Shown here one piece after another: positions 21,199 through 34,985 of a stretch of 64,000 nucleotides of DNA; the stretch's first letter is position 1; every line of letters begins with the position of its first letter. The DNA is from Actinoallomurus purpureus (GTDB taxonomy: Bacteria > Actinomycetota > Actinomycetes > Streptosporangiales > Streptosporangiaceae). The notes under the pieces are model-generated. The model was given only the letters and a program-made list of their open reading frames with translations. It did no database searches and had not been told where the DNA came from. Location: the NCBI RefSeq assembly GCF_024055795.1, contig NZ_JAMXMY010000001.1, positions 868,001-932,000 on the forward strand, written 5' to 3'. A program made the position numbers and the translations under genes.

Positions 21199-22560
21199 GT
21201 GGGTCTGGCGCCCGTCGGCACCCCCGCCGAGACGACCACCGAGAACCGCCGGCGTGAGCGGCGCGGCTGGTACTTCTACGACTGGGCGAACTCCGCCTTC
21301 GACACCACGGTGGTGTCGGTCTTCCTCGGCCCGTACCTGAGCAACGTGGCCAAGGCCGCCGCGGACGCGCACGGCTACGTGCACCCGCTCGGCATGGACC
21401 TGCGGGCCAAGGCGATCTTCCCGTTCGCGGTGACCGTCTCGGTGATCGCACAGGTGCTCGTGCTTCCCCTGGTCGGCGCGCTGGCCGACCACACGGGGCG
21501 CAAACGGGAACTGCTCGGGGCGTTCGCCTACCTCGGCGCGTTCGCGACCATGGGGCTGTACTTCGTCGCCGGCGGCCGCTACCTGCTCGGCGCCGGCCTG
21601 TTCATCGTGGCCAACATCGCGCTCGGTGCCTCGTTCGCCGTCTACAACTCGTTCCTGCCCGACATCGCCGCGCCGGATGAGCGCGACGCCGTGTCCTCGC
21701 GCGGCTGGGGTCTGGGATACCTCGGCGGTGGCCTCCTTCTCGTCCTGGACCTGACGCTGTTCCTCCTGCACGACCGCTTCGGGCTCACCGAGTCGACGGC
21801 CGTGCGCGTCAGCCTGGCCTCGGCCGGGATGTGGTGGGCGGCCTTCACCGTGATCCCGATGCGCGCACTGCGCAACCGGCACCGCGCGCGTTCGGGCGAG
21901 TCGGCCTTCGGCGCGGTCCGCGCCGGTTTCGGCCAGCTGTACGGCACGCTCCGCGACCTGCGCAACCGGCCCGTCACCCTGCTGTTCCTCTTCGCGTTCC
22001 TCGTCTACAACGACGGCGTCCAGACGGTCATCGCGATGTCGGCGACGTTCGCGACCGAAGAACTCGCGCTCGGCCAGACCGCGGTGATCGCGGCGGTGCT
22101 CCTGGTGCAGTTCGTCGCGTTCGGCGGCGCGCTGCTGCTCGGGCGGCTCGCCGAGCGGTACGGCACCAAACGGATCGTGCTGGCCTCGCTGGTCGTCTGG
22201 ACCCTCATCGTGCTGGCCGCCTACGCGCTGCGGCGCGGCTCCGCCGCCGAGTTCTTCGTCATGGCCGCCGGCATCGGCATGGTGCTGGGCGGTATCCAGG
22301 CGCTGTCCCGGTCGCTGTTCTCCCATCTGATCCCCCGGGACCGCGAGGCGGAGTACTTCGGGTTCTATGGGATCAGCGACAAGGGGACGAGCTGGCTCGG
22401 CCCGTTCGTGTTCGCCCTGGCGTTGCAGTTGACCGACAGCTACCGCAGCGCGATCGCGTCACTGGTGATCTTCTTCGTCGTCGGTTTCGGACTGCTGCTC
22501 GCCGTGGACGTCCGCCGTGGCGTCCGTGAGGCCGGCAATCCCCTCCCCCACCGGCTCTGA
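21199..22560 (+). CDS. MFS transporter, UMF1/Atg22-like
   Basis: A 453-residue protein with about 12 membrane helices. The signature WYFYDWANSAFDTTV near residue 25 is diagnostic of the UMF1 (unknown major facilitator) group related to the vacuolar amino-acid effluxer Atg22. GALADHTGRKRELL is the MFS loop-2 motif. The GTG start follows GGAGGACGC. It lies just after the glycerophosphodiesterase gene. Efflux of amino acids or small metabolites is the family-level expectation; the substrate is not known. Confidence 0.9.
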   Translation: MGLAPVGTPAETTTENRRRERRGWYFYDWANSAFDTTVVSVFLGPYLSNVAKAAADAHGYVHPLGMDLRAKAIFPFAVTVSVIAQVLVLPLVGALADHTGRKRELLGAFAYLGAFATMGLYFVAGGRYLLGAGLFIVANIALGASFAVYNSFLPDIAAPDERDAVSSRGWGLGYLGGGLLLVLDLTLFLLHDRFGLTESTAVRVSLASAGMWWAAFTVIPMRALRNRHRARSGESAFGAVRAGFGQLYGTLRDLRNRPVTLLFLFAFLVYNDGVQTVIAMSATFATEELALGQTAVIAAVLLVQFVAFGGALLLGRLAERYGTKRIVLASLVVWTLIVLAAYALRRGSAAEFFVMAAGIGMVLGGIQALSRSLFSHLIPRDREAEYFGFYGISDKGTSWLGPFVFALALQLTDSYRSAIASLVIFFVVGFGLLLAVDVRRGVREAGNPLPHRL

Positions 22561-22721
22561 GGGGCGTCGGAAGAACCCAGGTGCCACACGCGCCGCACGG
22601 GGGTCGGTGAACAGGCGCTGATCTGTTTCATCCCAGATGGCCGATAGCGGCGCGGCCACAAGCCGCATACGGCGATCAGCCCTACGTTACGATCGGCTCT
22701 CGCTCTTCGGCGCTGGGGGCA

Positions 22722-23495
22722 ATGATGCAGGCCATCCACAAGCACTACACCCGCGAGTTGTACAAGCAGTTCCACTACTTCGCCACGTGGATGCCCCACC
22801 TTGTGCTGGCGCTCGGGGACGTGGGTGTGTTGCGGGAACACCGCTTCGACCGGATGACCTCGCTCGCCGAACTCGGAGTGGACTTCACCACGCTCGACCG
22901 CGGCGGGCGCGCCGAGTACAGCTACTCCTCCACCGGAAAGGTCGACATCTCGCTCGACGGTGAGATGTCGGTTCCGTTGCTGCCCGGCGGCGAGCCGCCG
23001 TTGATGCTCACGGTCACCTTCAGCGGCGCGCACGCGACCTACTTCCGGGCGGCACAGTGCCGATCCGAGGCGATCAGCGATCTTCCGTCGTTGGAGAAGG
23101 CGCTGATCGGGTTGCGGCAGGCGGGTGCGTGGCGGCTGGAGTACGTCGTGGTGACCGAGCTGGTGCGCACCGGCCCTGCGGTGATCCTGGTCGCTGATCA
23201 GGCCGGTGCACGGGCGAATCTCCGGGTCACGGCGGAGTCACTGCCGGTACCGGCTCCCGTGGGCGGTGCGGCGGCCCTGAATGGGTCCGTGACCTCGGGG
23301 CTCGCCGCCAGCGTGATCGCTGCGGAGGGCGACGTGACGCCGCTCTTCCGCGTTGCGAAGCTGCGCAGGACGCTCGGCGGCAGGCCCAGGATCAACGTGC
23401 GGCGGCCGAGGGGGGCTTCGTCGGCGCCGCGCGAGGTCTGGGATTTCGCGGCCGTCTCGTGGGAGGAATTCGCGGAGGGCTCGGAGGATCCCTGA
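22722..23495 (+). CDS. Putative gasdermin-like pore-forming protein
   Basis: A 257-residue protein with no signal peptide and no obvious membrane helix, predicted rich in beta strands. Several features recall gasdermins: YVVVTELVRT (141-150), matching the YVVTEVLQT strand of animal gasdermin D; GDVTPLFRVAKL (203-214), matching GSTLAFRVAQL; and a helix before the YVV strand (LPSLEKALIGLR). FDRMTSLAEL (42-51) corresponds to the NLSIKDIL region. About 40 residues remain after this core and could be the short inhibitory tail seen in bacterial gasdermins. There is no N-terminal cysteine for lipidation. GGGGG precedes the ATG pair, and TACGAT at 22688 may be the -10. The next gene encodes a CHAT protease. 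The comparison is from memory and by eye. Confidence 0.5.
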   Translation: MMQAIHKHYTRELYKQFHYFATWMPHLVLALGDVGVLREHRFDRMTSLAELGVDFTTLDRGGRAEYSYSSTGKVDISLDGEMSVPLLPGGEPPLMLTVTFSGAHATYFRAAQCRSEAISDLPSLEKALIGLRQAGAWRLEYVVVTELVRTGPAVILVADQAGARANLRVTAESLPVPAPVGGAAALNGSVTSGLAASVIAAEGDVTPLFRVAKLRRTLGGRPRINVRRPRGASSAPREVWDFAAVSWEEFAEGSEDP

Positions 23496-23546
23496 ACGGT
23501 CGGGTGAACGAAGCGCCGGCTCTCACCGACCTTGACAGGGGGTCTC

Positions 23547-26500
23547 GTGCCTCGGAGCATGCCGCCTCTCGGCGAGAACGCCCGCCGTCTTCTCGCCGTC
23601 GTCGACCGTATGCCCGTACGCGTGCCGGAGCGCGACCGCGTCGTGACGGCGCTGGAAATGGTCGCGACTGAGGAGTGGCTCCGGGTCAGGATCGCGCTCG
23701 TGGACGAGCAGGTGCGCGCGTTGAGCCGGCCGGCACTGTCCTTCACCCCCGATGACCTGGCGCACGTCCTGGAGGTCGCCGCCACCGTCGCGTACGTCTA
23801 CGGGTTCGAATCCGTCGGTACCGGGCACGTGGCGGTCGCCCTGGCGGCGACCAGCCGGGGGGCGGCGGGGGCCATCGACATCATGGCTGAGGCGTTCGGG
23901 CTGGGCACCCTGGAGAACTCCACGGACATCGTTGCCCAGCACCTGGCGCTGAAGGAGACGGCCCGAACCGAATCACGCGAGGAGCCCGGCGAGGAGAGGA
24001 CCGGCGCCGGGCAGGCGGGTGGCGAGCGAGCAGATGAGGAGCGTGAGGGCCAGCGGGCACGGGAGGAGGAACCGGGCGAGGAAGAGGTGATCTATGGCGA
24101 GAGCCTCACTGGCCGTCGCTGGCATCGGGCGGCCACGATCGCCCATCTGGGGCTGCGGGCCGCGGCCTTCTGCGTCCTGCTGGTGATCGCGGCGCGCGGC
24201 GGTGACGCTTGGATGTGGCCGGTGGCCTTTGCGGCGCTGATCTCGACGCGCGATTCGCGGGAGCCCGGACTTCCGCTGGGCGATGAAGTCTCTCCGCTCC
24301 AGCCGTCGGCGCGCTGGCCGTGGCTGGGCTGCCTTGCCGTGGTCGCCGGCGCGCTCGGGATGCGGGCGGCGGCTGCGGTGATCGTCGTGGAGTTCCTGCT
24401 GCTGGAGGCCGTGTCCTGCGTCGGCGTCCGCATGGTGTCCCGCTGGATATGGATACAGGGCGGCGCGGTGATCCGGGTGGGGCGGCATGTCTCCGGTCTG
24501 CTCTCCGTCGTGGACGCGTATGCGACGCGCAGGCGATGCCGCCATCTCGCCGCCGTCGTGTTTCTCGCGGTGGTCCCGGCGGCCGCCGTCGCCGTCGCGA
24601 TGTCGCCTCTGTGGCCGCTGTACCTCATGGCCGGGGTCTTCGCCGCGCGCCGATGGACGGTGCTCGCCCTCGTCACGTCGGTCGTCGCGACCGTGTCGCC
24701 GGCCGGATCGGCATGGTCGCTGCTGTCGGCCTGGGCCGGTGGTCTGCTGGCGCGTGCGGTGATCGCCTGGTACGACAGGCCGCCGTCGGCCATCGTTCCG
24801 GTGCCCGCTCCTCGGCCGACCGCGGTATTGAGGCGGCTTGGGCGCGCGTACGCGCGTGCCCACCGGCTGGTACGGATCGGGCGTCCGGCGGCCGCTCTGC
24901 GGTGGCTCGACGGTGCCCGCGACGCGGCGGACCCCAGGCTCGTGACCCTGCGCGCCTGGGCCCTGTTGCAGTGCGGGCGCCCCGGAGAGGCCAAGAGCGT
25001 CATAGGGGGTGCGTCGGACGCCGACGACCGGATCCGCGCGATGATCACCTGTCTCGCCGAGCTGGAGCTGTCGAACGCCGACGCGGCCGACCGGGCTTTG
25101 ACGGAGTTCGGCGGCGTGGATGAGGACATGCCCGAGATCCTGTACCAGGTCGCGCTCGTCGCCCGTATCCGGCTCACCCTGCTGAACGCCGGCTCCGACC
25201 AGCTCACCGAGGCCATCGCCAGTGGGGTGCCACGGCGGATCCGGCGTGCCGAACTGCTTTTCGCCGTGACGTTGCTGCGGCTGGCCGCCGAGAGCGCGCT
25301 ACCGGCCGCGCCCGCGCTCTCCTCCCTGCTGGCCGGCGCCGGTGCGCTGCTGAGCGCGCCGGAGCTGCACCGGGCGCCGCAGGCCTTCTTCGATCCGCTC
25401 GACCGGCGACGGCCGCTGGCGCTGGAGAACACGCGCTGCCTCGCTCAGGGGGCCCTGGCCGAGTTGTACGAGAACGGCTCCGATACCGAGACGGTGGCCC
25501 GGCTCCACGCCGGAGAGGGCATCACCGGGTATCTGATGCGGATGGATCGCCCGGTCGAGGCCGCCGGCATCCTCAACGCCCTCGCCGACCGGTTGAGCGG
25601 CGAGCCCGGATACCGGCTCGCCGTCGTCCTCAGCCGGATCGAGGCTCTCGCGATGCTGAACGCGACCCGGCACCAGCTCAGCGAGGCCGAGGACCGGCGG
25701 CGCTGGTGGCGCGTCTACGGCCATACGATCGAACAGGCGATGCGGGACGCGGCGGCCGGGAGCGACTGGGAGACCCTCCTCGAACTGATCGAGTCGGCGC
25801 GGCTTCAGCTGGGCCCGCACAAGGACAGCAGCGCGTTCGACGCCTCGCGGGCCGTCGCGCCGTTCATCCAGGTACGCGGTGCCTCGCGCATGGAACAGGC
25901 GCACTGGTACCGGCCGGGCGAACGGCCGCCCGCCTATGCCTTGGAGGACATCGCCGGCGTCGTCCTGGGACCTGATACCTGGTGGTGGAGCACCTGGTCG
26001 ACCGGTACCGAGCTGTTCTGGGCACTGATGCCGCCGGACGCGCCCGTCTCGGGTGGCGTACTGCCGATGGGCCACGGTAGCGAGTTGCACGGCGCGCTGT
26101 CCGACCTGCGGGACGCGCTGCCGGTCCCCCACCCCGGGGAGGACACGAATGCCTTTGAGGACCGCGTGCTGCGCAGTCCGCTCCTCGCCGGGCCGGCGGC
26201 GGCGGAGACCGCACTCGCCCGGCGGCTCGGGAGGCTGCTGCCGGCACCCCTGGTCGACGCCCTGCTGCGAACGCGTGAGCCGCTGCCGCTCGCCTTCGCC
26301 CCCGCGGCCGAACTCGCGAACGTGCCGTGGGCGTGCGTCGGTATTCCCACCGAGGCTCCGGGCGACCTACGTCTCGTCGAGCGGTGTGTCCCGGTGATCG
26401 CTCCCCCGGCGGGCCTGCTCGCCACGATCGCCGCCCGCCCGCGGAACGCCGGCGCCGCACCGCTGGCCCTCGCGGTGATCGACCCGGGCGGTGACCTGGG

Positions 26501-27755
26501 TGGGGCGGCCGCGGAGGAACCACTGTCCACTGCGCGTCGGCTACTCGACGTCCTGCCTCCCGCTGTGGAGATCATCAGCCCTGACGACGACGTCTCGGTG
26601 GCGGATTTCGCCGCTCGGCTGAGTGCGCTGGGCGACACGACCAGCGCCGTCTTCGCCTGCCACACCGAGGACGACGGCGATTCCCCGTCGAGCTGCGGTC
26701 TCGTGCTCAGGCCGAGGATTTTGGGCGGCAGGCCGTGCGCGGCCAGGCCCAGGCTGCTCACGGCCGACCTGCTCATCGGCGACCCTGGCCGCTTCGCGAT
26801 GCCGAAACAGGTCCTGCTCCTCGCCTGTGAAACGGCCGACCTGCGCAACGCGGTGGCCGGCGAGTGGCTGGTCCTGGGACCGGCGATGCTGTGGGCCGGG
26901 GCCGATCGGGCGATCGTCACGAGCTTCCCCGTCATCGATACCGCCGAGGGCCATGACCGGGGCGATGTCATCGACCGCCACCTTGTGCGCCTGCTGGTCG
27001 AGCGGCGACCGCTCGCCGCGGGCCTGCGCGCCGTACAGCTGGAGCAACTGGCCCGCTGGCGTGACACGCGCCACCACGGGCATGACACGGGGCCGCCGGG
27101 CGCTCCGGTGCACTGGGGCGGGCATCTGGCCATGGGTGCGTTCGCCGACCCCCGGCCGTTGCCCGCACCACGACCGGCCCGCCGGCAACTCGTGCACCGC
27201 AGTGTTCCCGGGCTGCTCGATGACGCGGCACGACGCGCCGCCCAGGCCGGCCGTTCCGTCATCGCCTCCCGCGACCTGCTCCTCTGGCTCGCTCTTCACG
27301 GCTTCGAGGAGGACTTGCCGCCGTGGCGCCGGATGCTCATCCATGCCGTCGCCTATCCGTTCGCCGTGGTACCGGCGGTGTTCCGGCGCCGTCCGGGCTC
27401 CGCCGCACTCACCCGTGCCGCTCCCGGGCCGCAGGTCCAAGAGCTGCTCCGCTCCGCGTACGACGCCGCCCGCCTGGCACGGCACCGCGTCATCGACGTC
27501 GAGCACCTCCTGGTCGCGGTGCTCGGTGCGCGGGGGCCGGCGGGCCGGATCGCGCGGGCGCTGTGCGGGTGGGACGCCCGGCAGCCGGAGGTGATCAAGG
27601 CGATACTCGGCGACACGCAGCACGGCTACCAGCACACCGGCCTGCCTGCCCTTCGATACCTCGATCCGGCTGCCATCGCAGACGTCTACGCCGCCCTCGA
27701 AGCACCGGTGCCCGACGATGAGGACGACGAACTGCGCCTGCTGAGCGATCGGTGA
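23547..27755 (+). CDS. Membrane CHAT-protease protein with Clp-N-like and TPR-like regions
   Basis: A 1,402-residue protein. GTG 23547 is preferred because AGGGGG sits four bases upstream; a TTG at 23532 also fits the frame. Order: a helical Clp N-domain-like segment (about 55-125; SVGTGHVAVALAA), a Glu/Arg-rich linker (about 140-185), four to six membrane helices (about 190-415), a helical TPR-like region (about 425-760) and a CHAT caspase-like domain (about 815-1215). The CHAT domain has a candidate catalytic His1039 (VFACHTEDD) and Cys1094 (LLLACETADL). Two further Clp-N-like repeats close the protein (VIDVEHLLVAVL near 1320). It lies 51 bases after the gasdermin-like gene, so the two are probably co-transcribed. 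Cleaving that partner after a stress signal is the natural hypothesis. Confidence 0.8.
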   Translation: MPRSMPPLGENARRLLAVVDRMPVRVPERDRVVTALEMVATEEWLRVRIALVDEQVRALSRPALSFTPDDLAHVLEVAATVAYVYGFESVGTGHVAVALAATSRGAAGAIDIMAEAFGLGTLENSTDIVAQHLALKETARTESREEPGEERTGAGQAGGERADEEREGQRAREEEPGEEEVIYGESLTGRRWHRAATIAHLGLRAAAFCVLLVIAARGGDAWMWPVAFAALISTRDSREPGLPLGDEVSPLQPSARWPWLGCLAVVAGALGMRAAAAVIVVEFLLLEAVSCVGVRMVSRWIWIQGGAVIRVGRHVSGLLSVVDAYATRRRCRHLAAVVFLAVVPAAAVAVAMSPLWPLYLMAGVFAARRWTVLALVTSVVATVSPAGSAWSLLSAWAGGLLARAVIAWYDRPPSAIVPVPAPRPTAVLRRLGRAYARAHRLVRIGRPAAALRWLDGARDAADPRLVTLRAWALLQCGRPGEAKSVIGGASDADDRIRAMITCLAELELSNADAADRALTEFGGVDEDMPEILYQVALVARIRLTLLNAGSDQLTEAIASGVPRRIRRAELLFAVTLLRLAAESALPAAPALSSLLAGAGALLSAPELHRAPQAFFDPLDRRRPLALENTRCLAQGALAELYENGSDTETVARLHAGEGITGYLMRMDRPVEAAGILNALADRLSGEPGYRLAVVLSRIEALAMLNATRHQLSEAEDRRRWWRVYGHTIEQAMRDAAAGSDWETLLELIESARLQLGPHKDSSAFDASRAVAPFIQVRGASRMEQAHWYRPGERPPAYALEDIAGVVLGPDTWWWSTWSTGTELFWALMPPDAPVSGGVLPMGHGSELHGALSDLRDALPVPHPGEDTNAFEDRVLRSPLLAGPAAAETALARRLGRLLPAPLVDALLRTREPLPLAFAPAAELANVPWACVGIPTEAPGDLRLVERCVPVIAPPAGLLATIAARPRNAGAAPLALAVIDPGGDLGGAAAEEPLSTARRLLDVLPPAVEIISPDDDVSVADFAARLSALGDTTSAVFACHTEDDGDSPSSCGLVLRPRILGGRPCAARPRLLTADLLIGDPGRFAMPKQVLLLACETADLRNAVAGEWLVLGPAMLWAGADRAIVTSFPVIDTAEGHDRGDVIDRHLVRLLVERRPLAAGLRAVQLEQLARWRDTRHHGHDTGPPGAPVHWGGHLAMGAFADPRPLPAPRPARRQLVHRSVPGLLDDAARRAAQAGRSVIASRDLLLWLALHGFEEDLPPWRRMLIHAVAYPFAVVPAVFRRRPGSAALTRAAPGPQVQELLRSAYDAARLARHRVIDVEHLLVAVLGARGPAGRIARALCGWDARQPEVIKAILGDTQHGYQHTGLPALRYLDPAAIADVYAALEAPVPDDEDDELRLLSDR

Positions 27756-28625: not shown

Positions 28626-30056
28626 CTAGTGCCGCGTCAACGAACGTTGGCCGTGTTTGACCGTCGTTGGTTGATCCTCGCCTGAGAGACGAGCGACTCC
28701 CCATGGGGGTGGGGCGGGCCGCGGCCGGCCAATGGACCCTGCGAGGGCGCCGTGATGGGGGCGTCGTCTGGGGTCACGCCGGGCCGGTCCGGTACCGGGG
28801 AGGTGCCGTCCGGCTCGACGGTGCGTGATCACCACCGGAAACAGGTTCTTGGTGGTGATGGGTCCGCCCGGCCTGCGCCGGGCGATGTTGGCGCCGCCGA
28901 CGAGGTCGCGGTGCCCGCTGAAACCACAATGCATGCAAGTGAAGAGGCGGCCGGCGGGTTTGGGAACCCGCCGGCCGCAGGCCGGGCAGGTCGAGGAGGT
29001 CCCGCGCTCATCGACCAGCATGACGCGGATCCCGGCCTGTTCGGCCTTGTCTTTGAGGCAGCGGAGCAGGTAGCCGACCCGCCAGGCCCGGACGCGCTGG
29101 TTGTGCCGCCGCCCAGCCTTAAGATCCAGCACGCCGCGCGGGTCACCGACCACCAGCGTCCCGATCCGGCGCTTTACGGCCCAGCCGATGACGGTCTTGG
29201 CGGCCTCATGCTGGGCCTGCTTGACACGGCGCTTGTGCCGGGCTTCGATTTTGCGTTGCCGGGCCCGGTGTTTACGCCACCGCCGCGACCCGGCCTGACC
29301 CGGCTTCGGCGCCCGCTGAGCGACGGCACGGCGGCGGTGTTTGGTGTCTTTGAGGTGCAGATGCGTTTCGGCGCGTATCGCCCGCCCCGACACGATGAGC
29401 CCTTCCGCGCCCGGTCCGGCCACCGCGAACGGATGAATCACCCCCGGATCCACCCCCGCCACCCGGCCCGGATCCGGCTCACATCCCGGCTCATAGGTCG
29501 CGACGGGGACCTCGGCGGTCACCTCCACGAACAACCGACGACCCTCATTGAGGAGAGTAACCGACCGGACCTGTTCCACCGGGTAGGGCAGCTCCCGGTC
29601 CAGGCGCACCCACAACGGCGCGCACCCGCGCCCGACCGGGAGCCGTAACCGCTGACCATCAAGGACGAAAGTGCCGTGGTAGTACCGCACCGGCACCAAA
29701 CCGCGCTTGCGCCGAGGGAACCGCGCCAAGGAATCACCGCCGGCGCGACGCTTCGCGGCGGCGAACCACGCATCGCTGTAGCGGCGCAGCACCGACCGCG
29801 CCCCGGTGGTGTCCAGCTCACCGAACGTGCCCGGCCCGGCCGCCGACAACTCCCGGCACAGCTCCTGATACGACGCCAGCGGCCGAAGGCCGCGGTGGCG
29901 CTGCCACCGGTTCATATCCAGCACGCACGCCCACACGTCCCCGGCCGAGGCCAGCAACCCGAAACACCGCTCCCGCTGGGCGGCTGTCACGCGCAAGCCG
30001 ACCCGAGCGGTGCGCAGCACCACCAGGGGAGCATCCGGATCACTACGTCGAGGCAC
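28626..30056 (-). CDS. tnpB: TnpB RNA-guided nuclease (IS200/IS605 OrfB family)
   Basis: A 476-residue TnpB with an apparently complete RuvC site: Asp203 (GVDPGV), Glu350 (VDERGTSS) and Asp384 (GHRDLVGGANIA). A CPAC...CMHC zinc ribbon lies between the last two, and the middle is very basic (RRWRKHRARQRKIEARHKRR). TnpB uses an omega RNA from the 3' end of its own locus to cut DNA at the donor site and retain the transposon. The C-terminal about 90 residues after Asp384 are unusual, Arg/Pro-rich, and run into the terminal repeat: the stop TAG lies in the CTAG end. The natural C-terminus may be shorter and this region may mainly encode the guide RNA. The start is GTG 30056. No TnpA is present. 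Confidence 0.88.
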   Translation of the reverse strand: MPRRSDPDAPLVVLRTARVGLRVTAAQRERCFGLLASAGDVWACVLDMNRWQRHRGLRPLASYQELCRELSAAGPGTFGELDTTGARSVLRRYSDAWFAAAKRRAGGDSLARFPRRKRGLVPVRYYHGTFVLDGQRLRLPVGRGCAPLWVRLDRELPYPVEQVRSVTLLNEGRRLFVEVTAEVPVATYEPGCEPDPGRVAGVDPGVIHPFAVAGPGAEGLIVSGRAIRAETHLHLKDTKHRRRAVAQRAPKPGQAGSRRWRKHRARQRKIEARHKRRVKQAQHEAAKTVIGWAVKRRIGTLVVGDPRGVLDLKAGRRHNQRVRAWRVGYLLRCLKDKAEQAGIRVMLVDERGTSSTCPACGRRVPKPAGRLFTCMHCGFSGHRDLVGGANIARRRPGGPITTKNLFPVVITHRRAGRHLPGTGPARRDPRRRPHHGALAGSIGRPRPAPPPWGVARLSGEDQPTTVKHGQRSLTRH

Positions 30057-31890: not shown

Positions 31891-32852
31891 GGGTTTACCT
31901 TTCCGGGGTGCAGGGCGGCCTTGAGGACCGCGATGGCCTGGGCGGTGGCGGCTCGTGCGGCCTGAGTGTCGCGGACGGGGTTGAGCATCATGAAGTCGTG
32001 GAGAGTGCCGTTGTAGCGGACGCTGGTGGTCGGGACTCCGGCCTGGGTGAGCTTGCGGGCGTAGGCCTCGCCCTCGTCGCGCAGCACGTCGTTCTCGTCG
32101 ACGATGACGAACGCGGGCGGCAGGCCGGCCAGGTCGTCGAGGGCCGCGCGCAGGGGCGAGGCGGTGATTCGGGCGCGCTCGGTCGGGTCGGTGGTGTAGG
32201 CGTCCCAGAACCAGGCCATGGCCTTGGCCGTCAGGTGCGGACCGTCGGCGAACTCGCGGTAGCTGGCGGTGTCCTGCGCGGCGTCGGTGACCGGGTAGTA
32301 CAGCGACTGGTGCACGAAGTGCACGTCGCCGCGCTGCTTGGCCATGATGGTCAGCGCGGCGGTCATGTTCCCGCCGACCGAGTCGCCGGCGACCGCCAGG
32401 CGGGACGGATCGAGCCCCTCGTCCGCGCCGTGCCGGGTGATCCATTGCGCCGTGGCGTAGGCCTGCTCGATCGCGACCGGGTAGCGGGCCTCGGGCGACC
32501 GGTCGTACTCGACGAAGACCACCGCGGCCCGCGCGCCGACGGCGAGTTCGCGGACGAGCCGGTCATGGGTGCCGGCGTTGCCGAGGACCCACCCGCCGCC
32601 GTGCACGTAGAGCACGACCGGCAGCACCGTCCCGGCCGTCCCGGTGGGCTTGACGATACGGACCCTGACCTCGCCGACCTGGGCCGGGACGGTGATCCAC
32701 CTCTCGTCGATCTCGGGCATCGCGACCGGGCCGGCCTGGACGTCGTCGAGGACCTTGCGGGCGCCGGCGGGCCCCCGCTCGTAGAGGAGTGGCGGCTTGG
32801 CGGCCGCTTCGGCGAACTCCTGCGCCGCCGGCTCCAGGATGTGCGTGCTCAT
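31887..32852 (-). CDS. Alpha/beta hydrolase of the hormone-sensitive lipase family
   Basis: A 321-residue esterase. The HSL oxyanion motif is HGGGWVLG, the nucleophile motif GDSVGGN (Ser), the acid in DENDVLRDEG and the histidine in LHDFMML. HSL-family enzymes hydrolyse short acyl esters. GGAGGGACAGC precedes the ATG. Both ends overlap neighbours by four bases (ATGA at 32849 and 31887), so translation is coupled to the ferritin-like/CDGSH gene upstream and the second hydrolase downstream. Confidence 0.9.
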   Translation of the reverse strand: MSTHILEPAAQEFAEAAAKPPLLYERGPAGARKVLDDVQAGPVAMPEIDERWITVPAQVGEVRVRIVKPTGTAGTVLPVVLYVHGGGWVLGNAGTHDRLVRELAVGARAAVVFVEYDRSPEARYPVAIEQAYATAQWITRHGADEGLDPSRLAVAGDSVGGNMTAALTIMAKQRGDVHFVHQSLYYPVTDAAQDTASYREFADGPHLTAKAMAWFWDAYTTDPTERARITASPLRAALDDLAGLPPAFVIVDENDVLRDEGEAYARKLTQAGVPTTSVRYNGTLHDFMMLNPVRDTQAARAATAQAIAVLKAALHPGKVNP

Positions 32853-34675
32853 GCTGTCCCTCCTTTCTCCGTGGTGATCCCGTCATCGGCCGGGCCGGTT
32901 TCCGGGCCCGGCTCTTCCTCACGAAAGTCGATTTCTCGGTGGGTTCCGTCGCACAGCGGCTTGCCGGCCGAATGCCCGCAGCGGCACAACGTCATCCTGT
33001 TCCGGGTCTCCAGCGGCCGTCCGTCCGCGCGCTGGACGGGCACGCCGCCGGTGACCCACAGCGCGCTGGCCAGGCCGCCCTCTTCCTCGAGGACCGAGAT
33101 GGCCTGCGGGAGGTCGGGCTCGACCGAATCGCCGCCGCGTCGCAGGGCGTAGCTGTACGACCCGGAGGGGCAGTCCTCGATCCTTCCCATGATGTTGGAG
33201 CGCACGTCGCTGTCCTCGGTGTCGGCGAGCATCTCGGCGATCGGCCTGGTGCGTCCGATGCAGAACGCGGCGTGAACGCAGAGTTCGCCGACACGCTGAG
33301 CCGAGATGCCCACGCCGTCGTGCACGTGCTGCAGTTCCTCGTACGGCCGGACGTCGGCGGACTCGGTGCCGTCGAAACCGACCCGGGCGTGCGTCCCGTC
33401 GCAGAACGGCTTGGCGGACGATTGGCCGCAGCGGCACAGCGCATAGGTGTCCTCAGTGGCCAACGTCTCGCCGGTCTGCCATGTCAGCGCGGCGTTGTTC
33501 TCAGCGGCGACGATCTTGCGTTTGCGCTTGAGCGGAACTCCGCCGGACACGAGGTAGGGGCCGTCGGGGAGTACGACGATCCGCTGCCGGTCGTCGGCGC
33601 TCCAGCCGCGGTGCTCGGGTGGGACGTACTCGAAGGTGGGGCCGGCCGTCGTGCCCTCCCCGTCGGGCATCCGCATCAGCGCCTGGGCCTGTGCCTTGAG
33701 CCTGTACATGGTGGTGGTGGCGACCGCGAGCAGCCTCGGGCTGCCGTTGAACGCCTGTTCCAGCAGATACAGGAGGGTGCAATAGGTGTGGTTGAACTCC
33801 TCTTGGGCCGTACGGATCGCGCTGCCCGGAGCGTGATCGGCGAGTCGCGGGTTGGGCCTCATCGGGAGGACTCCGAGGAGATCCACGGTGATCGTCTCGC
33901 CGGTGGGACCGGAGCGCGGGGTGTCGCCGCGCCGGTAGCGCCGGCCGGTTCTGAGTTCCTGGAAGCGGTAGTAGTGGGCGACCTCGTCCCGGTCGGGATG
34001 GTGGACGTCCGGGTCCCCGTCCCAGACCGCGCCGCGGGACGTGCCCTCGCCCTCCTCGACGATCTCCTCCAGCGCGGCCAGCGCCGAGGCCAGGTCGTTT
34101 ACGGCGATCATCCGTCCGGCGGTGTGCCGGAATTGTCCGGCGTGCACCTGGCGAGCCGGATCGCCGCGGAAGACCTCCCGCTCGCCGAGCCGGTCGCACA
34201 GGTGGCGCAGCCCGTCCTCGATCGCGTCGTAGAACTGCCCGATCGTCTCGTAGCCGTCACCCTCAGCCGGGGCGCCGGGCGGTGCCGGCTGTTCGAGCCG
34301 GAGGAACATGTCGAGTGCCCCGGCGCCGAAGGGAAGCAGCGACAGTTCCAGGGAGGGGTCACCGTGCGGCAGCCGCCGGGGATGCGGCGGCAGCATCCGC
34401 GGCGAGTCCAGCCGCGGCCGCCCGCCGACGGCGTTGAGCAGGTTCGCGGCCAGCGTCAGGTGGAGCATCTCTTCAATGAAGACTCCGGCCACCGCCTCGA
34501 CGGCTTCGGGATTGCGTTCCGGGTCGAGCGAGTAGAGCGCGCACAGGTACGGCGGCAGGGTCGCGTGTTCCAGCTCGATCGCCCACTGCAGGTGCTCACG
34601 GAGATCGTCGAGCGTGGCGATCCGCCCGGACGTGACGGGAGCAGCAGCATGCTGCCGCCGGGCTGAGTGATTCAT
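32849..34675 (-). CDS. Ferritin-like (VioB-type) protein with two CDGSH iron-sulfur domains
   Basis: A 608-residue fusion. The N-terminal about 330 residues resemble the ferritin-like domain of iminophenyl-pyruvate dimer synthase VioB (LREHLQWAIELEHATLPPYL; EEMLHLTLAANLLNAVGG; later EEFNHTYCTLLYLLEQAFNG), giving E/H helices suited to a di-iron site. Two CDGSH motifs follow: CRCGQSSAKPFCDGTH near 430 and CRCGHSAGKPLCDGTH near 585. Each has the Cys3-His set for a 2Fe-2S cluster. It should be a cytosolic redox or oxygenase-like protein. The start is ATG 34675, because the longer frame has no ribosome site. It heads a coupled operon with two hydrolases; secondary metabolism or detoxification is plausible. 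Confidence 0.82.
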   Translation of the reverse strand: MNHSARRQHAAAPVTSGRIATLDDLREHLQWAIELEHATLPPYLCALYSLDPERNPEAVEAVAGVFIEEMLHLTLAANLLNAVGGRPRLDSPRMLPPHPRRLPHGDPSLELSLLPFGAGALDMFLRLEQPAPPGAPAEGDGYETIGQFYDAIEDGLRHLCDRLGEREVFRGDPARQVHAGQFRHTAGRMIAVNDLASALAALEEIVEEGEGTSRGAVWDGDPDVHHPDRDEVAHYYRFQELRTGRRYRRGDTPRSGPTGETITVDLLGVLPMRPNPRLADHAPGSAIRTAQEEFNHTYCTLLYLLEQAFNGSPRLLAVATTTMYRLKAQAQALMRMPDGEGTTAGPTFEYVPPEHRGWSADDRQRIVVLPDGPYLVSGGVPLKRKRKIVAAENNAALTWQTGETLATEDTYALCRCGQSSAKPFCDGTHARVGFDGTESADVRPYEELQHVHDGVGISAQRVGELCVHAAFCIGRTRPIAEMLADTEDSDVRSNIMGRIEDCPSGSYSYALRRGGDSVEPDLPQAISVLEEEGGLASALWVTGGVPVQRADGRPLETRNRMTLCRCGHSAGKPLCDGTHREIDFREEEPGPETGPADDGITTEKGGTA

Positions 34676-34739
34676 GGGTGTCTCACTTCGGCTATCGAAA
34701 GGGGATTTCACCGGCGCGGTATCCGCCGGTCTGCACGGC

Positions 34740-34985
34740 TCAGGCGCCTCCACCGGGGCCGCGCCGCCGGGGCCGGGGGTCGCCTTCCAACTCCTCGATG
34801 GCGCCGAGAAGGGCGCGGAGTTCGACCTCTTCGCGCTGGATGTCGGCCGGGTCGAACAGCCACTCCGAAACCGGCAGGCCGGTGGCCTGCTGGGCGTCGC
34901 TCTCCGCCTCGTGGCCGTGGTCGCCGAGCTTCGTCACGAGCCTCGACCCGATCAGGCCGGTGCCGCCGATTACCACGATCTTCAT
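34740..34985 (-). pseudogene. Truncated Rossmann-fold (NmrA/SDR-like) hybrid gene
   Basis: An 81-codon frame starting MKIVVIGGTGLIGSRLV, a perfect NAD(P)-binding N-terminus. After about 28 residues it changes into an acidic, helical tail (WLFDPADIQREEVELRALLG) that does not belong to this fold. It is far shorter than any NmrA-like protein (about 250-300). An internal deletion that fused the start of one gene to the end of another in frame is the likely explanation. It lies upstream of the ferritin-like/CDGSH operon on the same strand. Confidence 0.5.

Follow-up and report, generated by a model that had tools for sequence, protein, structure and literature searches.

Closest described systems and the locus in question

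Bacterial gasdermins (bGSDM) were reportedly described by Johnson et al. in 2022. According to one review, a palmitoylated N-terminal cysteine is reported for the majority of them, not all, and their neighbours include caspase-like (C14, CHAT) and FGE/C-type-lectin genes (PMC9612521). Fungal gasdermins occur with Q2-L proteases, about 17% of which are CHAT, and two papers describe control of these gasdermins by CHAT proteases (PMC10989679, PMC12881547); in Podospora, by one of these accounts, a tetratricopeptide repeat (TPR)-bearing CHAT protease activates a gasdermin (PMC12881547). Does a comparable pair exist in an actinomycete? We analysed a stretch of 64,000 nucleotides from Actinoallomurus purpureus (contig NZ_JAMXMY010000001.1, positions 868,001 to 932,000; hereafter the window, from whose first letter all unprefixed coordinates are counted), in which the gene of a 257-residue protein, P0001, is followed by the gene of a CHAT caspase-like protease. 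The pair is probably a gasdermin-like suicide module, with the CHAT protease cutting an inhibitory tail.

How does this locus compare with what has been described? It resembles the bacterial gasdermins (curated models PDLC02986 and NF051890) in a size near 250 residues, a nearby protease gene and a remote profile match to the solved structure 7n50, but differs in that curated models miss the family and that an N-terminal cysteine for palmitoylation is lacking. With the fungal gasdermin/Q2-L pairs, as those papers present them, it shares a CHAT protease gene beside a short gasdermin, whereas the fungal pairs serve allorecognition and the likeness here is by description, not by sequence. In Craspase, the TPR-CHAT protein of type III-E CRISPR, bacterial immunity likewise employs a caspase-like protease of the CHAT type, but it is guided by CRISPR RNA (PMC9729208); by eye no such genes adjoin the window pair, and no search for them was made. 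No report of the small-protein family appeared among the titles, abstract openings and passages listed by a literature search, and an earlier notice elsewhere is possible.

The small protein and its probable link to gasdermins

The first gene and its parts are as follows.

22715..22719, + strand: GGGGG run ahead of the P0001 start, possible ribosome binding site, read from the sequence
22722..23495, + strand: gasdermin-like protein P0001, 257 residues; open reading frame (ORF) with a match to 7n50 through profile A4
23370..23492, + strand: C-terminal tail of P0001, residues 217–257, proposed to be an autoinhibitory peptide with the cleavage region, from the tails in the family alignment

The initial annotation had described a 257-residue ORF with two strand-like motifs and a tail of about 40 residues, and had called it gasdermin-like on the strength of such motifs. 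The description is accurate: YVVVTELVRT occupies residues 141–150 and GDVTPLFRVAKL residues 203–214, with 43 residues C-terminal to the latter, and both ORFs of the pair are picked by a codon-position guanine–cytosine (GC) score. The gasdermin link has also gained support, through a profile (A4) made from an 18-sequence alignment of the family described below. Against the PDB, A4 finds the bacterial gasdermin 7n50 as its sole significant match (E 2.5e-4, next best 0.18, a lead of about 700-fold), with profile positions 23–171 in register with residues 25–182 of 259 in 7n50, about 150 residues. Scored with A4, the 7n50 fragment reaches 22.7 bits and the best of its 2000 shuffles 9.5, and with the profile reversed the unshuffled fragment drops to −0.4 bits; hhalign returns a probability of 55% and E 1.2e-4. 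An earlier eight-member profile, A1, also places 7n50 first, at E 0.026, but with the delta chain of an ATP synthase close behind (0.069). The segment aligned to 7n50 contains YVVVTELVRT; GDVTPLFRVAKL, though much of the family keeps it, falls beyond that segment. From these profile comparisons the small protein is likely homologous to the gasdermin pore-forming domain, remotely and through one structure only.

Several results weigh against this assignment. When subgroups are removed, the E-value of 7n50 ranges from 2.5e-4 to 0.04; it weakens to 0.04 without the core clade, to 0.012 without loci L033–L036 and to 0.0056 without L039 and L040. No solved gasdermin besides 7n50 stands in the list of PDB matches to A4, adding 7n50 to the profile reaches no further one, and for another bacterial gasdermin, 9v2s, the fragment compared gets 2.9 bits, a score that seven of its 1000 shuffles exceed. 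NF051890 and PDLC02986, curated models that both detect the 7n50 fragment, each match one of 18 members weakly (E 0.14 and 0.021), while in the same libraries unrelated families match members as well or better (0.014, 0.018); both models are silent at the family locus in 14 of 14 genomes. Two AlphaFold models, made from two-sequence alignments (P0001 with the L014 protein), have predicted local distance difference test scores of 33.7 and 35.4 and are uninformative on the fold. Finally, residues 1–7 are free of cysteine in each of 18 members (one has Cys8; some starts are assumed), so the small protein, if a gasdermin, dispenses with the lipid anchor reported for most.

Could the small protein then have a different fold, as a substrate of CHAT or an effector, and its match to 7n50 be a remote coincidence? 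The single solved gasdermin reached among several, the lack of an AlphaFold structure and the near silence of the curated models would suit this, and P0001 itself matches neither NF051890 nor PDLC02986, nor anything in Pfam, NCBIfam or PADLOC, so that no curated model names it. We nevertheless judge it improbable: 7n50 stands far ahead of the next match and above all 2000 shuffles, the protease context is that reported for gasdermins, and known gasdermins are equally divergent among themselves (a search with the 7n50 fragment gives 7n52 no better than E 0.41). A confident match to another family, the outcome that the initial annotation had named as telling against a gasdermin, was not found; the best among the 18 members is the one at E 0.014.

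How far the curated models speak to presence or absence can be judged from controls. With an E limit of 10, PDLC02986 and NF051890 weakly matched 3 and 1 of 14 control genomes, respectively; matches to these models in one of the 14 family genomes (G000) lie off the family locus and were taken as chance, as in the controls. For gasdermins of the known type, NF051890 found none in 396 genomes of the phylum, a silence that shows no absence because the controls were equally silent.

The tail has a recurring layout, a linker that is basic and variable and, after it, a short hydrophobic motif, which reads VSWEEF in P0001, VSWDEF, LTYEDL and VDYEDF in three near relatives and ATWTEP in a fourth. Linker and end motif are present in four of the five core-clade tails (P0001, L031, L030 and L002; not L029).

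A family collected through the small protein

The family comprises P0001 and 18 further loci, 19 in total: 17 from actinomycetes (the window included), one from Mesorhizobium and one from Gemmatirosa. All were collected via the small protein alone; CHAT was not used. A tblastn search of 72,556 plasmid records with P0001 found distant relatives in Embleya (31% identity), Gemmatirosa (27%) and Mesorhizobium (25%), and two of these three used as queries added a Streptomyces avidinii locus. Seven of 297 genomes of the window's order matched, of which five were kept, the window's own included; for the family that we take to be Streptomycetaceae, 10 of 297 matched and nine were kept. Matches in three genomes (G157, G185 and G792; E 3.1e-4, 3.4e-4 and 8.6e-4) were excluded from the counts because profile A1 gave no confirmation; L005–L008 helped build A1, so their own A1 scores are not independent. 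Searching genome contigs with profile A2 gave one locus, L014, from Streptosporangiaceae NEAU-GS5, which was counted as one with L005 (the G173 match), and the search of genome contigs with P0001 had no match. The second copy in genome G234 (L042:6308-7756, about 465–483 residues) differs from the other, short-tailed members by a long C-terminal extension; for that reason it was omitted from A4, though it counts among the 19 loci.

Other searches added little. A scan of viral contigs for the family, a tblastn search of phages with the Embleya protein, and plasmid searches with the L007 protein, the L035 protein and the 7n50 fragment all found none; a plasmid search with the S. avidinii protein returned only itself and two known loci. 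Run over 396 genomes of the phylum, A1 matched nothing but the window copy, which says little as at most six candidates were scored per listed genome. It matched 4 of 100 genomes of the family, all previously known. Within the window's genus, the small protein is present in one of eight genomes.

The CHAT partner

What stands beside the small protein in the window, and elsewhere? The features of the second gene are listed here.

23538..23542, + strand: GGGGG run before the GTG at 23547, possible ribosome binding site, read from the sequence
23547..27755, + strand: CHAT protein, 1402 residues from the GTG (1407 from a TTG at 23532), PF12770 above cut-off
24129..24629, + strand: hydrophobic stretches 195–219, 260–298 and 331–361, probable membrane anchor, Kyte-Doolittle scan
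26211..27137, + strand: CHAT domain, best PF12770 stretch 894–1202 in TTG numbering
26661..26663, + strand: predicted catalytic His1039 (GTG numbering), aligned with a His in the partners of L029 and L031
26826..26828, + strand: predicted catalytic Cys1094 (GTG numbering), aligned with a Cys in the partners of L029 and L031
27456..27560, + strand: Clp_N-like segment near the C terminus, PF02861 at 18.1 bits, under the 20.7 cut-off

As the initial annotation had it, the CHAT gene begins 51 bases past the P0001 stop, at GTG 23547; TTG 23532 and ATG 23559 are alternative starts. Pfam CHAT (PF12770) matches the protein at E 1.3e-12 with 48.3 bits, where 24 is the cut-off, and counting from the GTG, His1039 and Cys1094 lie exactly where they had been placed. 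CHAT proteases use a His/Cys dyad, and these two residues are predicted to be catalytic by analogy to it. The hydrophobic stretches are probably a membrane anchor, judging by their hydropathy. A weak Clp_N-like match also lies near the C terminus of the partner in genome G770 (16.9 bits), and as a speculation the segment might act as a sensor.

At 17 of the 19 family loci a CHAT gene is no more than 5 kb away, which indicates that the window pair is no chance juxtaposition; the initial annotation had named homologues lying apart as a sign against the pair, and the opposite was found. In 14 genomes a CHAT match shares the contig at a distance of 0 to 4,621 bases (0 denoting overlapping matches), and CHAT is nearby at three of the four plasmid loci: it adjoins the small-protein gene in Embleya and S. 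avidinii, and in Mesorhizobium lies about 2.5 kb from it with three genes between. The chance of CHAT within 5 kb is 0.1–4% per genome (14 genomes, each with 1 to 36 CHAT matches above cut-off), an estimate that assumes an even spread of CHAT genes; some of the loci are close kin. The exceptions without nearby CHAT are Gemmatirosa and the second G234 copy, L042. The L042 neighbour carries WD40 repeats; a Lon-like stretch read in it by eye was unconfirmed by searches. In the Gemmatirosa neighbour (L003:7429-8946) a TIR domain, read by eye, seems joined to a transglutaminase-like one (PF04473, weak, E 0.025).

All ten partner proteins scanned exceed the CHAT cut-off, with varied architectures around the domain. 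TPRs are found in the Embleya and S. avidinii partners, with TPR-like matches just under the cut-off in that of G730, and the G234 partner (L041:4291-7716), divergent from its gasdermin-like gene, has a CHAT-NB-ARC-TPR order, an NLR-like layout. In Mesorhizobium a caspase C14-FGE protein is encoded two genes off on the opposite strand, and in G243 a kumamolisin-like protease is encoded downstream. The CHAT-NB-ARC-TPR, C14-FGE and kumamolisin-like neighbours fit the gasdermin pattern. Might the small protein instead inhibit CHAT like an antitoxin, with the protease as the killer? The two genes adjoin at many loci, as they do in the window, which such an arrangement would explain. We regard it as very improbable, given the homology to a pore former and the wide variation of partner CHAT architectures, which is easier to square with a common substrate than with a common inhibitor.

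Evolution and genomic setting

The nearest relative of P0001 is the G770 protein (48% identity, support 98/91), most deeper forks of the tree being unresolved, and the two CHAT proteins are 46% identical over 1407 aligned positions. Because G770 matches both genes to a similar degree, the window pair looks, by sequence comparison, to have been inherited as a unit. A longer unit is common to Mesorhizobium (L004:8989-15350) and NEAU-GS5 (L014:9001-15420), which belong to different phyla: a five-gene block at 66–79% identity, in which an ASCH gene and two more accompany those of the small protein and CHAT. Its presence in both points to transfer between phyla. Nothing in the NEAU-GS5 stretch matches the C14-FGE gene of Mesorhizobium.

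In the window, the GDPD and MFS genes upstream of the pair are kept in six relatives of the genus. DNA similarity to the window ends at the MFS gene stop in all five relatives compared (window 22557–22722), and neither gene of the pair is found in the downstream stretches of the six (about 9–10 kb in five, 3.4 kb in the sixth). Past MFS the relatives carry differing genes, with RbpA-like and glycosyltransferase-like ORFs, by eye, in three. Positions 22557–22722 may mark a variable site.

Is the pair then a defence system? The same biochemistry could serve developmental or secretory programmed death, with a pore but not phage defence, a reading that overlaps the suicide module in all save its role. 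Many actinomycetes are mycelial, 17 of the 19 loci are actinomycete, and by eye no defence gene is seen among the window neighbours (no defence-library scan was made). A conflict system is better suited, however, to the sparse spread within the genus, the plasmid carriage, the near copy in another phylum and the NLR-like partner, and we consider the developmental role rather unlikely.

Two other ORFs of the window, both on the − strand, are recorded here. Just downstream of the pair, 28626–30056 encodes 476 residues that are TnpB-type by eye (zinc-finger CxxC pairs), and the ORF at 32849–34753 has, also by eye, a ferritin-like start and two CDGSH-like repeats.

Proposed mechanism and significance

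We propose that the two genes form a suicide module in which P0001 would be a divergent bacterial gasdermin-like pore former. Its C-terminal tail (217–257) would keep the core inactive until the adjoining, probably membrane-anchored CHAT protease, when triggered, cuts the tail linker. The freed core would then assemble pores in the membrane of its own cell, leading to cell death, most likely as abortive infection. Autoinhibition, cleavage, pore formation, trigger and defence role are thus all put forward here as inferred properties of the pair.

More tentatively, and with somewhat less than even confidence, the family may be a separate, unrecognised gasdermin-like pore-protein lineage, present in about 2–3% of the genomes sampled from two actinomycete groups (5/297 and 9/297). 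It would do without the lipid-anchored cysteine and work with varied proteases (CHAT, including an NLR-like one; two loci also have genes for caspase C14-FGE or sedolisin nearby). In the window's clade it would be fired by a membrane-anchored CHAT protein whose Clp_N-like segment may sense damage to Clp proteolysis.

What would this mean for the biology of these bacteria? If true, gasdermin-mediated death would reach an actinomycete lineage overlooked by current models, and the A4 profile could be used to find further members. The loci would also offer natural pairs in which to examine NLR-like or membrane-bound CHAT as an activator of bacterial gasdermins.
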